Shown in pieces: positions 20,074 through 26,409 of a stretch of 64,000 nucleotides of DNA (positions are counted from its first letter, which is position 1; every line of letters begins with the position of its first letter). A program made the translations under genes and the position numbers. The DNA is from Woeseia oceani (lineage in GTDB: Bacteria; Pseudomonadota; Gammaproteobacteria; Steroidobacterales; Woeseiaceae), in contig NZ_CP016268.1 in assembly GCF_001677435.1 (NCBI RefSeq), positions 3,089,001 through 3,153,000 of the forward strand. The letters are read 5' to 3'. The notes beneath the pieces were generated by a model, which ran no database searches, was not told the DNA's origin, and saw only the letters and a program-made list of their open reading frames with translations.

Positions 20074-21744
20074 ATGCAACCAACAACAGGCGAGCCAAAG
20101 AGTAGCGAGGAACGTGGCCGACAGCTGCGCGATATCGAGCAATCCGACCTTACGTGGCGCGCGCTCAGTACACTGAACATATTCCGCCTGCTGGTCGCGG
20201 TATCGTTGCTGATCCTGTTCTTTGCCAGCGGTGAGCCGCGCTTTTTCGGTGATCGCTACCCCGCTTTATTCTCCGCCACCGCCGCCGGGTATTTCGTATT
20301 TGCGGTGCTGTCCGGCGTCACTATCCGGATGCGCTGGGTTTCGGCGGCACTGCAGGTGCTTACCCAGGTCACGGTCGATATTGCCGCGATTGTGATCTTG
20401 ATGCACGCCAGCGGCGGTATATCCAGCGGCCTCGGTGGTTTGCTGGTGGTCTTCGTTGGCGCTGGCAGCCTGGTCTTGCCGTTGCAGGTTCCCGCTTTTT
20501 TTGCGGCGCTGGCTACGCTGGCAATCCTTGGCGAGCAGCTATTCTCGCAATTGTTCGACTCGCCGGGCCACAGTGCCAATTATTCAGCGGCCGGCGTACT
20601 GGGCGCGATCGTCTTCGCCATCGCCCTCGCCGCGAGACCACTCGCCAAACGCATTCAGGCAAGCGAAGAGCTCGCCCACCAGCGCGGTATCGACCTCGCC
20701 AACCTGTCGGAGCTGAACGAGTACATCGTTCAGCATTTGCGGGAAAGCATCGTCGTCATCGACCGTAACGACGGCATCCGGCTGATCAACAGCTCGGCCG
20801 CCGCATTACTGGGAATCGACGCCGGGCAGCACAAGACCATGGCGGCCGCAGCACCGGATCTGGACCGCTTCCTCAAAGCCTGGCGGGCAGACGACAGTAT
20901 CGCCGGTCACACGGATTTCACGCTGGTCAGCGTTGATCATTCGGCGCGTATCTCGGTCCACCTCGCGCCCCTCGGGCGCGGGATCGGCCGCAATGGACCC
21001 GTATTGATGTTTCTCGAAGACGCCAGCCTGATGAACGCCCGGGTACAACAGTCCAAACTGGCGTCGCTCGGCCGGCTGAGCGCCAGCATTGCCCATGAGA
21101 TTCGTAACCCGGTAGGCGCCATGAGCCACGCCGGACAACTGCTCGCCGAATCGAAAGGCCTGTCCGAAGCAGACCTCCGGCTGACCAGCATCATCCAGAC
21201 ACACGCCGAACGCGTCAGCCACATCATTGACAATGTACTGCAGTTGTCGCGTCGTGAATCCGGCCAGGCCGAGGAGTTGCAGCTGAAGCCATGGCTGGAA
21301 GATTTTGCCGCCGAGTTCTCCAACACCCTGGAATTGCAGGAAGGCGAGCTCAGTATCGCCAGCGCAGAAGAGGGGCTGATTGTGAATATGGACCCCAGCC
21401 ATTTGCGCCAGGTAATGTGGAATTTATGCGATAACGCCGTGAAATACGGCAGCGAAACCGGCGGCATCATGGTTGAATTGCGTGCCGGACAGGTTGCACG
21501 CAGTCGCCGGCCGTTCCTTGAAGTTCTAGACCGGGGTCACGGTATCGATTCCGCAACGGCCGATAAGATATTCGAACCATTCTTCACCAATCGCAAAGGT
21601 GGCACGGGACTCGGCTTGTATATATCGCGGGAACTGTGCGAGCTGAACCACGCAACGCTGGTGTATCAGGCGCGCGAAGGCGGCGGCAGCATATTTCGCA
21701 TCGTCTTTGCTGACGGCGGTCGCTGGCAGCGCCTCGGCGATTAA
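20074..21744 (+). CDS. pilS: Sensor histidine kinase PilS
   Basis: PilS is the inner-membrane kinase that controls pilin transcription through PilR, in Pseudomonas by sensing pilin levels in the membrane. The 556-residue protein has about six N-terminal membrane helices (residues 30-195), a PAS-like domain with the VVIDRNDGIRLINSSAA strand (about 225-310), and a kinase core. The H box is SIAHEIRNPVGAMSHAGQLL (about 345), the N box NLCDNAVKYG (about 450) and the G boxes DRGHGID and GGTGLGLYIS (about 485-515). A TACAAT hexamer in the upstream gap could be its -10. pilR follows after 24 bp. Confidence 0.93.
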   Translation: MQPTTGEPKSSEERGRQLRDIEQSDLTWRALSTLNIFRLLVAVSLLILFFASGEPRFFGDRYPALFSATAAGYFVFAVLSGVTIRMRWVSAALQVLTQVTVDIAAIVILMHASGGISSGLGGLLVVFVGAGSLVLPLQVPAFFAALATLAILGEQLFSQLFDSPGHSANYSAAGVLGAIVFAIALAARPLAKRIQASEELAHQRGIDLANLSELNEYIVQHLRESIVVIDRNDGIRLINSSAAALLGIDAGQHKTMAAAAPDLDRFLKAWRADDSIAGHTDFTLVSVDHSARISVHLAPLGRGIGRNGPVLMFLEDASLMNARVQQSKLASLGRLSASIAHEIRNPVGAMSHAGQLLAESKGLSEADLRLTSIIQTHAERVSHIIDNVLQLSRRESGQAEELQLKPWLEDFAAEFSNTLELQEGELSIASAEEGLIVNMDPSHLRQVMWNLCDNAVKYGSETGGIMVELRAGQVARSRRPFLEVLDRGHGIDSATADKIFEPFFTNRKGGTGLGLYISRELCELNHATLVYQAREGGGSIFRIVFADGGRWQRLGD

Positions 21745-21768: not shown

Positions 21769-23085
21769 ATGAACAGACCGTTGGCCCTGGTAATTGACGA
21801 CGAGCCCGATATTCGCGAGCTGCTCGCGCTGACGCTCGGCCGTATGAATATTGAGGCAGCGCTCGCGGGCGACGTCGCTGAAGCGCAGGCGCAACTCAGC
21901 GAACACAATTTTGATCTTTGCCTGACAGACATGCGCTTGCCGGACGGGGATGGACTCGATCTCGTCAAGTGGATACAGACCAACAGTCCAGGCGTACCTG
22001 TCGCCGTCATCACCGCACACGGCAATGTGGAAACGGCGGTACAGGCGCTGAAGCTCGGTGCGTTCGACTTCATCTCGAAACCCCTCGATCTCGCCAATCT
22101 GCGCAATGTCATCGAAAGTGCGCTGAAACTGGGCGAGCCGGCGCCGGCAGACGACAATCGCCTGTTGGGCAATTCCACACCCATGCGGGAACTGCGGGAG
22201 TTGATTGAGCGGGTCGCGCGCAGCCAGGCACCGGTCCACATCTGCGGCGAGTCCGGTACCGGCAAGGAACTCGTGGCAAGACTGATCCATGACTCGGGGC
22301 CGCGTGCCGATGGACCTTTCGTGCCGGTTAACTGCGGTGCAATTCCCGCGGACCTGATGGAGAGTGAGTTCTTTGGCCACCGCAAAGGCGCCTTCACAGG
22401 CGCGGTAGCGGACAAAGCAGGACTGGTGCAAAGCGCGAATGGCGGTACGCTGTTTCTCGATGAAATCGCCGACCTGCCACTGTCCATGCAGGTCAAGCTG
22501 CTGCGCGTAATACAGGAACAAACGGTCCGTCCAGTTGGCGCGGCGGCTGAGGAGCAGGTCAATATCCGTATCCTGTCCGCGACTCACAGGAACCTCGCCG
22601 ACATGGTGGCGAACAGCGACTTCCGCGAAGACCTGTTTTACCGAATCAATGTCATTGAACTGCGCGTCCCGCCGCTGCGTGAACGCGGCGACGATGTCCT
22701 GTTGCTTGCCGAAAACGTCATGCGGCGACTCGGCAGTTCAACGGAAATGCTGGATGCAGGCGCCCGCAAGCTGTTATGCAGCTACCGTTTTCCCGGCAAC
22801 GTGCGCGAACTGGAAAACATGCTGGAGCGGGCAGTTACGCTGTGCGTCAATGGCAGCATTTCGAGTTCCGACCTGCACGTCCGGGAAACTCCTCGGGCGG
22901 ACGATGCATTGCCAGCGGCCAACAGCGCGACGTCCAATCTCGGTGGGCATATCGAAGATGTTGAGCGCCAGGCGATTGTCGAAGCACTCGAAAAAACCCG
23001 CTACAACAAGACGGCGGCGGCGAAGCGACTGGGGCTGTCGTTTCGCCAGTTGCGGTATCGCATCAAGAAACTCGGTATCGAGTAG
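21769..23085 (+). CDS. pilR: Sigma-54-dependent response regulator PilR
   Basis: PilR is an NtrC-class activator of sigma-54 RNA polymerase at the pilin promoter. The 438 residues comprise a receiver domain (phospho-acceptor Asp in CLTDMRLPDGDG, about residue 54), a AAA+ central domain with Walker A GESGTGKE (about 160) and the sigma-54 contact loop GAFTGA (about 208), and a Fis-type DNA-binding helix-turn-helix at the C-terminus (KTAAAKRLGLSFRQLRYRIK). Its probable target, a -24/-12 promoter with repeat operators, starts within 35 bp of the pilR stop. Confidence 0.95.
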   Translation: MNRPLALVIDDEPDIRELLALTLGRMNIEAALAGDVAEAQAQLSEHNFDLCLTDMRLPDGDGLDLVKWIQTNSPGVPVAVITAHGNVETAVQALKLGAFDFISKPLDLANLRNVIESALKLGEPAPADDNRLLGNSTPMRELRELIERVARSQAPVHICGESGTGKELVARLIHDSGPRADGPFVPVNCGAIPADLMESEFFGHRKGAFTGAVADKAGLVQSANGGTLFLDEIADLPLSMQVKLLRVIQEQTVRPVGAAAEEQVNIRILSATHRNLADMVANSDFREDLFYRINVIELRVPPLRERGDDVLLLAENVMRRLGSSTEMLDAGARKLLCSYRFPGNVRELENMLERAVTLCVNGSISSSDLHVRETPRADDALPAANSATSNLGGHIEDVERQAIVEALEKTRYNKTAAAKRLGLSFRQLRYRIKKLGIE

Positions 23086-23115
23086 CCAGCAGCGTCGGCG
23101 GATGCCGACGCACTG

Positions 23116-23169
23116 TGACAATTTTTGTCAGTTCCTGACAGCCAGTGACCGAACTTGCCCAGCCTGACA
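23116..23169. promoter_or_regulatory. Probable PilR enhancer: phased TGACA/TGTCA repeats
   Basis: TGACA (23116-23120), TGTCA (23126-23130) and TGACA (23136-23140) are spaced at exactly 10 bp, forming two overlapping palindromes with 5-nt centres. A fourth TGACA lies at 23165-23169. They sit about 80-135 bp upstream of the -24/-12 element, the usual distance for an NtrC-class enhancer. Pseudomonas PilR is reported to bind (C/G)TGTC-type repeats upstream of pilA, so PilR is the natural candidate; assignment is inference. Confidence 0.55.
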
Positions 23170-23219
23170 AAAGCCGTGACTGCGAAGCCCGTCACATTTC
23201 GATTTTTTTTCATTATATT

Positions 23220-23232
23220 TTTCAATAACTTA
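23220..23232 (+). promoter_or_regulatory. Possible IHF site upstream of pilA
   Basis: TTTCAATAACTTA matches the IHF consensus WATCAA-N4-TTR with one mismatch. It lies in an A+T-rich stretch (23200-23250) between the TGACA repeats and the sigma-54 promoter. DNA bending by IHF at this position would bring enhancer-bound PilR to the polymerase. The A+T-richness makes chance matches likely. Confidence 0.4.
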
Positions 23233-23249
23233 AATTACATCTGCTAAAA

Positions 23250-23266
23250 CTGGCATGGGGCTTGCT
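23250..23266 (+). promoter_or_regulatory. Sigma-54 (-24/-12) promoter of the first pilin gene
   Basis: CTGGCATGGGGCTTGCT differs at one base from the consensus YTGGCACG-RNNN-TTGCW, with the invariant GG and GC dinucleotides in correct phase. It ends about 70 bp before the pilin ATG at 23337. It follows pilR directly, consistent with PilR-dependent pilin expression as known in Pseudomonas. Confidence 0.85.
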
Positions 23267-23336: not shown

Positions 23337-23798
23337 ATGAAAAAAGTTCAACAGGGTTTTACGCTTATCGAACTGATGATCGTTGTCGCGATCATCGGCA
23401 TCCTGGCCGCCATCGCTATTCCGGCTTATCAGGACTACACGATTCGCGCACAGGTTTCTGAAGGTTTGAGCCTGTAAGGCGCTGCTAAAGCAGCGGTAAC
23501 CGAGTACTACCAGGACCAGGGTGCATATCCTGCTGATAACGATGAAGCTGGACTGGAAGCCGCAGCAAGCATCGCCGGCAAATATGTTTCTCAGGTCGCA
23601 GTTGCGGGTAACGTCATCACGGTGACCTACTCAAATGCGGACCCGCAGTCTGCCAACGCCAACATCAACGGAGCTACCATTACTTTGACGGCATTGGATA
23701 ACGGCGGCAGCGTCTCTTGGACCTGCGCGGGCGGCGCCGGTGGCACAGAGCCATTGAACGCGAACCCGAAATGGCTGCCAGCTGCTTGCCGTCCGTAA
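23337..23798 (+). pseudogene. pilA: Major type IV pilin PilA interrupted by an in-frame TAA at codon 47
   Basis: The frame begins [20 protein letters not shown], a perfect type IV prepilin N-terminus: short leader, GF cleavage site, Glu at mature +5 and a hydrophobic helix. After EGLSL a TAA at 23475-23477 ends the product at 46 residues. The same frame then stays open to TAA at 23796-23798, reading GAAKAAVTEYYQDQGAYPAD and ending SWTC...LPAACRP, the usual pilin C-terminal disulfide loop. Without the stop it is a normal 153-residue pilin. A sigma-54 promoter precedes it and a strong terminator follows. It may be a recent nonsense mutation (a Ser TCA codon would need one base change) or a sequence error. 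The 46-residue peptide could be membrane-inserted but cannot form a pilus. Confidence 0.85.
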
Positions 23799-24012: not shown

Positions 24013-24516
24013 ATGAAAACATCCACACGACAAGCAGGCTTCACGCTGATCGAACTCATGATAGTCGTTGCCATTATTGGCATCCTGGCCTCACTGGCTG
24101 TTTCGGCCTACCAGACTTATACCGTGCGCGCCCAGGTCGCCGAAGCACTGAACTTTGCTGCCAGCGTTAAAGTACCCATTGTTGACACATTCACTACAGA
24201 GGGACGCCCTCCGAGTGGACGCCAGGATGTCGGTTTATCTGCGGCAGCGACTGATTCACAAGGCAATTACGTCAGCGCCATGAATATCGTCAATGGCCGC
24301 ATCGACATTACTTTCGGCAACAACGCGCACCCTGCCATTTTTGGTGAGTCTCTGTCGGTCACGCCCTATGCCACGCCGGGCGGACAGGCCATCTCGTGGC
24401 GTTGCGGCTACGCATCGGCCCTCAATGGCGGCCCGCTGACCGGCGGTGGCATTACCGCGGCTTACCAGGCCGGCTCCATCGAAGAACGATACCTGCCGTC
24501 CAATTGCCGTGGCTAA
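24013..24516 (+). CDS. Second type IV pilin, intact
   Basis: This 167-residue prepilin begins [20 protein letters not shown], with the prepilin peptidase site before Phe and Glu at mature +5, so it is a substrate for the PilD encoded at 27754. The globular part ends with the cysteine pair in SWRCGY...YLPSNCRG, a pilin disulfide loop. After the N-terminal helix it differs substantially from the first pilin. The start is the ATG at 24013; the 13 upstream in-frame residues do not look like a prepilin leader. A degraded -24/-12-like element (CCGGCATCGTGCTTGAA at 23933-23949, lacking the -12 GC) lies about 65 bp upstream. It could be the working major pilin or a minor subunit. Confidence 0.9.
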   Translation: MKTSTRQAGFTLIELMIVVAIIGILASLAVSAYQTYTVRAQVAEALNFAASVKVPIVDTFTTEGRPPSGRQDVGLSAAATDSQGNYVSAMNIVNGRIDITFGNNAHPAIFGESLSVTPYATPGGQAISWRCGYASALNGGPLTGGGITAAYQAGSIEERYLPSNCRG

Positions 24517-24687: not shown

Positions 24688-26409
24688 ATGGCAGTATCGG
24701 CATCTCAATCGACGCTTTCGGGCCTTCCACGGCGCCTGGTCCAGGACGGGATCATTGCTGAACAGGCCATCCTTGACGCCGCAGAAGCGGCCAAGAAAGC
24801 ACATCTGCCGTTAGTCGCCTACCTCGTATCCAACGAACTGGCCGATTCCCGCGCAATCGCGGTCGCGGCCTCGCACGAGTTCGGCGTGCCTTTGCTGGAT
24901 CTGGATGCGATAGAAGTGGATCTCGAGTGCCTGCGGGCAGTCGATCAGAAACTCCTGAACAAGCACCGTGTGCTGCCTTTGGTCAAACGCGGCCAGCGGC
25001 TATTCCTGGGTATCTCTGACCCAACCAATTTACAGGCTATCGACGAGGTCAAGTTTCAGACCAGCCTGCGTGTTGATCCGGTGGTTGTCGAGCAGGCAAA
25101 ACTGGAAGAACGCATCAGCAAAGCGCTGGAAGCGGTCGACACGACCATGTCCGGCCTCGACGATGACGACTTCGACCTGGAGAACCTCGACGTATCAAGC
25201 GGCGAAGAAGAGCAGGAAGATGGCATCACCCGTGATGACATCGAAGACGCGCCGGTTGTTCGTTTCGTTAACAAGGTTTTGCTCGACGCGATCAAACGCG
25301 GCGCATCGGATATCCATTTCGAACCTTACGAGAAAATCTTCCGCGTACGCACACGACTTGACGGCGTGCTTTCCGAAGTTGCACAACCGCCGGTCGCGCT
25401 TGCCAACAAGGTATGTGCGCGACTCAAAGTAATGTCGCGCATGGACATTGCCGAGCGCCGCGTACCACAGGACGGTCGCATCAAAATGCGTTTGTCCAAA
25501 AACCGCGCTATCGATTTTCGTGTCAATACCTGCCCGACCTTGTTCGGCGAGAAAATCGTATTACGTATTCTGGATCCCAGCAGCGCCAAGCTTGGCATTG
25601 ACGCACTGGGCTATGACGAAACGCAGAAGGCGCTGTACCTAAAGCACCTCAACAAGCCGTACGGAATGATTTTGGTTACCGGCCCGACAGGTTCGGGTAA
25701 AACCGTTTCGCTGTATACCGGCCTCAATATTCTGAACACGGAAGACCGCAATATTTCGACGGCGGAAGATCCGGCGGAAATCAACCTGCCTGGCATCAAC
25801 CAGGTTAACGTCAATCCGAAAGTTGGACTCACGTTTGCCTCATCGCTGAAAGCGTTTCTGCGACAGGATCCCGACGTCATCATGGTCGGTGAGATTCGTG
25901 ACCTGGAAACCGCCGAGATCGCGATCAAGGCGGCACAAACCGGTCACCTTGTACTTTCCACACTGCATACCAATGACGCGCCGAAAACACTGACGCGACT
26001 CGTCGACATGGGCGTCAAGCCTTACGCTATTGCGACCTCAGTAAGCTTGATCATTGCGCAACGGCTTGCGCGCAAGTTGTGTGACAACTGCAAGGAAGTG
26101 CGTGACATTCCGCACGAAGCCTTACTCAAAGAAGGCTTCGCGGAAGCAGACATCAAAGCAGGGCTTTCAGTATTCGGGCCGAAGGGCTGCAAGTTATGCA
26201 ATGAAGGGTACAAAGGCCGCCTCGGCTTGTTCCAGGTCATGGAAGTCTCAGAGACCATGGGACGCATCATCATGGAGGGTGGCAATGCCATGCAGATAGC
26301 CGATCAAGCTGCCAAGGAAGGTGTCATCGATCTTAGAACGGCCGGACTGAACAAAGTCAAGGACGGGATCACAAGTCTTGAAGAGATCAACCGGGTTACA
26401 ATTGAGTAG
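24688..26409 (+). CDS. pilB: Type IV pilus extension ATPase PilB
   Basis: PilB is the cytoplasmic hexameric ATPase that powers pilus polymerisation. The 573-residue protein has an N-terminal MshEN-type domain (about residues 1-150), Walker A GPTGSGKT (about 331), an Asp box and Walker B RQDPDVIMVGEIRD (about 395), a His box, and a zinc-binding CxxC pair (CDNC about 465, CKLC about 508). The MshEN region in other bacteria can bind c-di-GMP, which is notable given the diguanylate cyclase at 3089-4408, but I cannot confirm the ligand residues. pilC follows after 34 bp. Confidence 0.95.
   Translation: MAVSASQSTLSGLPRRLVQDGIIAEQAILDAAEAAKKAHLPLVAYLVSNELADSRAIAVAASHEFGVPLLDLDAIEVDLECLRAVDQKLLNKHRVLPLVKRGQRLFLGISDPTNLQAIDEVKFQTSLRVDPVVVEQAKLEERISKALEAVDTTMSGLDDDDFDLENLDVSSGEEEQEDGITRDDIEDAPVVRFVNKVLLDAIKRGASDIHFEPYEKIFRVRTRLDGVLSEVAQPPVALANKVCARLKVMSRMDIAERRVPQDGRIKMRLSKNRAIDFRVNTCPTLFGEKIVLRILDPSSAKLGIDALGYDETQKALYLKHLNKPYGMILVTGPTGSGKTVSLYTGLNILNTEDRNISTAEDPAEINLPGINQVNVNPKVGLTFASSLKAFLRQDPDVIMVGEIRDLETAEIAIKAAQTGHLVLSTLHTNDAPKTLTRLVDMGVKPYAIATSVSLIIAQRLARKLCDNCKEVRDIPHEALLKEGFAEADIKAGLSVFGPKGCKLCNEGYKGRLGLFQVMEVSETMGRIIMEGGNAMQIADQAAKEGVIDLRTAGLNKVKDGITSLEEINRVTIE

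Follow-up and report, generated by a model that had tools for sequence, protein, structure and literature searches.

Does the DNA between pilR and pilA of Woeseia oceani hold the enhancer through which PilS and PilR would control the major pilin gene, and how widely is its design shared? The window, by which we mean the whole stretch of 64,000 nucleotides that was analysed, comes from a genome assembled as one contig of 4,059,891 bases. It carries, in this order, pilS, pilR, the intergenic enhancer region, a pilA frame, a second pilin gene, and pilB. pilS (20074–21744; this and the pilR, pilin, half-site, IHF-like, and promoter coordinates below lie on the plus strand) encodes a membrane sensor kinase with the Pfam domains 6TM_PilS, HisKA, and HATPase_c. 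pilR (21769–23085) is full-length and encodes an NtrC-class response regulator that comprises a receiver, an AAA+ sigma-54 activation region, and a Fis-type HTH. All four of its Pfam domains (Response_reg, Sigma54_activat, AAA_lid_14, and HTH_8) score above cut-off, and its translation contains the GAFTGA loop. Among the 25 NCBIfam matches listed, none above cut-off gave a name to PilS or PilR; by Pfam domains, the two proteins supply the 6TM kinase and the receiver/AAA+/HTH regulator that characterize PilS-PilR control of pilA. The second type IV pilin gene (24013–24516) has an open frame that matches PF00114 and N_methyl, and the general prepilin N-terminal domain TIGR02532 is its only NCBIfam match above cut-off. 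pilB (24688–26409) is named from its T2SSE and MshEN domains and from its position. Two consecutive pilin genes are also found in one relative (G020, locus L120).

An earlier note on this DNA had proposed that three pentamers at exact 10-bp steps precede pilA, and these are present: TGACA at 23116–23120, TGTCA at 23126–23130, and TGACA at 23136–23140. The first two pair as the inverted repeat TGACA-N5-TGTCA, and a weak fourth half-site, TGACC, follows in the same 10-bp phase at 23146–23150. The copy that the note had counted as fourth, a TGACA at 23165–23169, does exist, but it lies off this grid (29 bp from 23136) and outside the conserved columns, at a position that is not conserved. A scan of the 4.06-Mb genome, proposed in the same note, returned the exact three-half-site pattern once. 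Allowing up to two mismatches gave eight matches, two of which are the pilA array read on either strand, compared with three for a reversed control; 200 dinucleotide shuffles of the upstream region produced no match as good as that of the real array. A genome-wide regulon in this organism was considered and rejected: none of the six 2-mismatch arrays outside pilA (L002–L006 and L008) has a strict sigma-54 element within some 900 bp, and the open reading frames beside the arrays of L006 and L008, the two loci for which they were listed, include nothing pilus-like. Among the matches listed, pilA is the only place in the genome where the array is joined to a sigma-54 element.

Conservation was assessed in pilR loci pooled from this genome and searches of 40 relatives (30 loci) and from named genomes (80 loci), whose near relatives include metagenome-assembled genomes of Woeseiaceae with PilR identities of 70–74%. 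We kept 49 loci, our own included, in which a type IV pilin-like start lies no more than 520 bp after pilR; L001 and L007, which are copies of our own locus, were left out. The array, written R-N5-Y-N5-R with R = TGACR and Y = YGTCA, occurs without mismatch in 29 of these 49 loci and with at most one mismatch in 42, which provides the conserved upstream inverted repeats that characterize sigma-54/NtrC-class promoters. Seven loci lack it at one mismatch (L035, L049, L093, L101, L112, L114, and L118), and some of these are not true pilA loci. L094, which combines an exact array with a weak sigma-54 match, was left out of the set of 41 arrays used below. Among the 40 distinct arrays, the first four columns of half-site 1 are kept in 39 (T), 40 (G), 40 (A), and 40 (C); GTCA of half-site 2 is kept in all 40; and half-site 3 keeps G and C in 40, A in 39, and T in 30. 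Columns flanking the array are far less conserved. The alignment of relatives called for by the earlier note thus revealed conserved pentamers at a conserved 10-bp spacing, the reverse of the outcome it had named as fatal to its proposal.

The weaker fourth in-phase half-site is real, because 22 of the 41 arrays have a half-site there with no more than one mismatch, compared with an average of 2.7 of 41 for each offset from 35 to 64. Its orientation is mixed in relatives (R-like in 19 of 41 and Y-like in 14 of 41 at one mismatch, with some arrays scoring as both). The four in-phase half-sites would most likely constitute two abutting dimer sites, the second of which has a weak outer half. A pair of abutting sites appears to fit better than the two overlapping palindromes described previously, which would share the middle half-site. 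In four loci (L039, L045, L046, and L047), half-site 1 and the stop codon of pilR seem to overlap, such that the enhancer would begin inside pilR.

Sigma-54 promoters follow the -24/-12 consensus TGGCACG-N4-TTGCW, and the IHF consensus is WATCAANNNNTTR. The element TGGCATGGGGCTTGCT at 23251–23266 departs from the former at one position, as the earlier note had stated, and contains the GG-N10-GC core of sigma-54/NtrC-class promoters. Of the 42 loci whose arrays have no more than one mismatch, 41 have a good -24/-12 element downstream of the array. The A+T-rich, IHF-like sequence claimed for this region was located at 23220–23232 (TTTCAATAACTTA), where it differs from the consensus by one mismatch and lies 31 nt before the TGG of the -24 element. 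Matches of this quality occur in 23 of the 41 promoters, compared with 2.4 expected in shuffles, and in 18 of those 23 the site is positioned exactly 31 nt before the -24 element. A putative IHF-type site with a fixed position is therefore found between enhancer and promoter.

The combination extends well beyond near relatives. Of 396 genomes of the host's order, 163 carry three half-sites followed, after a gap, by a sigma-54 element, and the reversed control matched in none; the 233 genomes without a strict match pool incomplete genomes, genomes lacking pilR, and diverged sites. These counts, together with the 42 of 49 pilR-pilin loci, indicate that the array is not due to chance. A version with two half-sites was found class-wide in 36 of 276 genomes at distances of 76–136 (two control matches) and in 47 of 276 at distances of 121–181 (no control match), and the third half-site is degenerate in many class-wide and Pseudomonas sites. 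A pilin follows in 23 of 31 and 18 of 23 of the respective class-wide readings, plus one pilin-like open reading frame recognized by eye, and in 26 of 30 Pseudomonadaceae readings. Those without a pilin motif number 8 of 31, 5 of 23 (L235 being the one re-added by eye), and 4 of 30; class-wide matches and matches from the family of G042 that were listed without a locus were left out of this classification. At least three genomes (G039, G314, and G013) carry two whole enhancer-promoter copies. Those of G039 (G039:C25:141747-141883 and 143075-143211) are 1.3 kb apart, which suggests tandem pilin copies. In G020, where pilA lies away from pilR, an array with a Y-like half-site 4 (TGTCT) is located near the gene (L120:116-160) and has no good sigma-54 element.

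The distance between enhancer and promoter varies among these genomes in a regular manner. We measured d from the centre of half-site 2 to the -12 GC, which is 137 at this locus. At least 150 matches from 147 genomes of the order fall at d = 124–127 (22), 134–138 (101), 145–150 (18), and 157 (3), with six elsewhere; none of the matches listed for the order lies at 128–132, 139–144, or 151–156. In Pseudomonadaceae, d is 78–81 (12), 88–92 (7), 101–104 (6), or 135 (1). A class-wide set comprises 40 pilin-linked promoters, mostly one or two genomes per family and spanning d = 80–179; one reading each was dropped for L153 and L229, which gave double readings 20 bp apart. The best period of this set is 11.02 (bootstrap 10.82–11.22), and none of 4000 random sets was as good with the period left free. 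Class-wide, the distance thus changes mostly in whole helical turns (n = 40).

It is likely that PilR-type pilin promoters form a natural ruler, in which the spacing has drifted over about 78–179 bp and has been held near helical turns of ~11.0 bp by selection on looping. The same steps could arise as an artefact of shared ancestry or of a 10-bp array read in different registers, and we consider this unlikely. Many of the genomes are related, no significant periodicity is seen when the order is reduced to its 17 distinct out-of-cluster lengths (p = 0.083), and double readings 20 bp apart do occur, as in L153 and L229. However, the class-wide set draws few promoters from each family and peaks at 11.02, with R = 0.56 compared with 0.16 at 10.0 bp; a period other than 10.0 speaks against misread registers of the 10-bp array as its source. 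The 30 distinct class-wide lengths give R = 0.57, a value reached by none of 20000 random sets, and within single genera all 12 adjacent steps measure 9.0–12.8 or 20.0–21.0 bp (p about 0.0002 against a uniform distribution). If selection does hold the spacing in this way, selection on looping would be readable from genomes, and mutants would not be needed to estimate the helical repeat in vivo. What is kept in phase would then be the fixed IHF position and the pair of abutting PilR sites.

We conclude that the region very probably combines an upstream activating site with the sigma-54 promoter from which PilS-PilR drives the major pilin gene. The conserved array, IHF-like site, and sigma-54 element bear out the earlier description of an NtrC-class promoter laid out directly after pilR and before pilA. 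Comparison of genomes establishes the array, its association with sigma-54 elements and pilin genes, the position of the IHF-like site, and the helical spacing; what is known of the protein family suggests how these parts would work. Phosphorylated PilR dimers would bind the in-phase TGACR/YGTCA half-sites on one face of the helix, likely occupying a strong TGACA-N5-TGTCA site and the weaker site that abuts it. Once bound, PilR would assemble into oligomers; with IHF bending the intervening DNA into a loop from its site 31 nt upstream of -24, these would reach sigma-54 RNA polymerase at the -24/-12 element, some 137 bp away, and open the promoter.

Could the array instead serve a different NtrC-class activator or a repressor, with PilR binding elsewhere? 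The genome encodes further NtrC-class regulators, which matched PilR searches at 39–44% identity, and the assignment of the array to PilR in this organism derives from sequence comparison. We nevertheless regard this alternative as very unlikely, given that the array tracks PilR. Among the matches listed for 39 relatives, array and sigma-54 element occur together in 25 of the 28 genomes that have an orthologue of PilR and in none of the 11 without, the latter including G025 (47% identity) as well as G009 and G028, which have only paralogues. The three exceptions that possess PilR are G020, G033, and G037, the last of which stops at a contig edge. Proteins with N_methyl are kept in 10 of the 11 PilR-less genomes, a count that does not show that pilA is kept because N_methyl matches include pseudopilins. 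The array also mostly precedes pilin genes, and its half-sites are shared by the pilin promoters of Pseudomonas, a known target of PilR. A role of the palindromes at the RNA level, in a hairpin that terminates or stabilises the pilR transcript, is barely credible: folding of the region gives a z-score of -3.14, but the strong stem is a separate hairpin at 23092–23111, upstream of the array, no T-run follows it and a terminator scan found none on this strand, the array is also present where pilA does not adjoin pilR (Pseudomonas), and the 11-bp spacing rule would be left unexplained. The hairpin itself, GCGTCGGC-ggat-GCCGACGC, is a perfect 8-bp, GC-rich stem just past the pilR stop codon.

The gene that this probable PilR-driven promoter would serve is itself interrupted. 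The pilA frame (23337–23798) matches PF00114 and begins with a pilin N-terminus, and an in-frame TAA breaks it at codon 47 (23475–23477), shortly past the conserved N-terminal helix. The aligned pilA frames of relatives are open at this position, and elsewhere in the genome PF00114 matches only the intact second pilin. The promoter is intact, and the major pilin expected downstream under PilS-PilR control is broken by this one in-frame TAA. A sequencing error could be its source. If the TAA is real, PilS would sense no PilA from pilA, and the promoter might be permanently on.

How does this promoter compare with known systems? Among the papers listed, a literature search on Woeseia and pili found nothing relevant, and a search for an 11-bp spacing rule for PilR found no report. 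A TGACR-N5-YGTCA array for pilA was not found in the portions available of PMC6058289, PMC8041468, PMC11841059, PMC6528607, PMC10418997, and PMC6211767.

Pseudomonas offers the closest parallel. Its PilR sites are described as (C/G)TGTC-type repeats, and a footprint of P. aeruginosa PilR was reportedly published by Jin in 1994. The earlier note had suggested that the palindromic phasing may set the Woeseia promoter apart from these sites. We located pilA in other genomes via pilB, which gave 16 loci from Pseudomonas, Halopseudomonas, Stutzerimonas, Azomonas, and Marinobacter (P. aeruginosa not among them; L119–L125 left out). TGACR-N5-YGTCA precedes the pilin gene exactly in 11 of the 16 and with one mismatch in the other five; these one-mismatch sites, which have shuffle frequencies of 0.005–0.05, are weak taken singly. 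In the family of G042, the genome that holds the Pseudomonas resinovorans locus, 31 of 119 genomes match, compared with two matches for the control. A sigma-54 element lies downstream in Pseudomonas as it does here, and the PilR HTH is conserved from this window to Pseudomonas. The shared half-sites and conserved HTH remove the suggested contrast. What differs is the arrangement: the Pseudomonadaceae array is nearer the promoter (mostly 78–104 bp to -12, compared with 137 here), the third half-site is often degenerate, and pilA does not adjoin pilR. The promoter is of an ordinary kind, strongly conserved and of widely shared design. For PilR-type pilin enhancers in many families of the class, a clear half-site consensus emerges: TGACR-N5-YGTCA, with half-sites in 10-bp phase.

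Other systems resemble individual parts of this layout. The Npa-pilE system of commensal Neisseria places an IHF site between the UAS and the RpoN promoter of the pilin gene under a PilSR-like system, according to the part of PMC6528607 available, and the likeness considered here is one of layout. In Myxococcus xanthus, the accessible text of PMC11841059 describes NmpR sites (GCGCA-N5-TGCGC), two of which lie 5 nt apart at the pilR promoter. These share with our array the 5-bp half-sites, the 5-bp gap, and four half-sites in 10-bp phase, and two abutting dimer sites would likewise be the simplest reading here; the half-site sequence and the regulator differ, and NmpR binding has been demonstrated experimentally. 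The spacing rule has its counterpart in Vibrio, where 61 LuxO-dependent qrr enhancers, likewise of the NtrC-class sigma-54 type, have loop lengths clustered about 11 bp apart (PMC4740811, as far as its text was available). That set covers one genus, a different activator, and lengths of about 80–120 bp, whereas PilR-type promoters span the class at d of about 78–179 bp. The ~11-bp rule is thus already known from Vibrio qrr, and what is added here is the PilR system and its breadth, a second and broader natural data set, with a period of about 11 bp, against which helical phasing of enhancer loops in bacteria, and looping on one face of the helix, can be tested.
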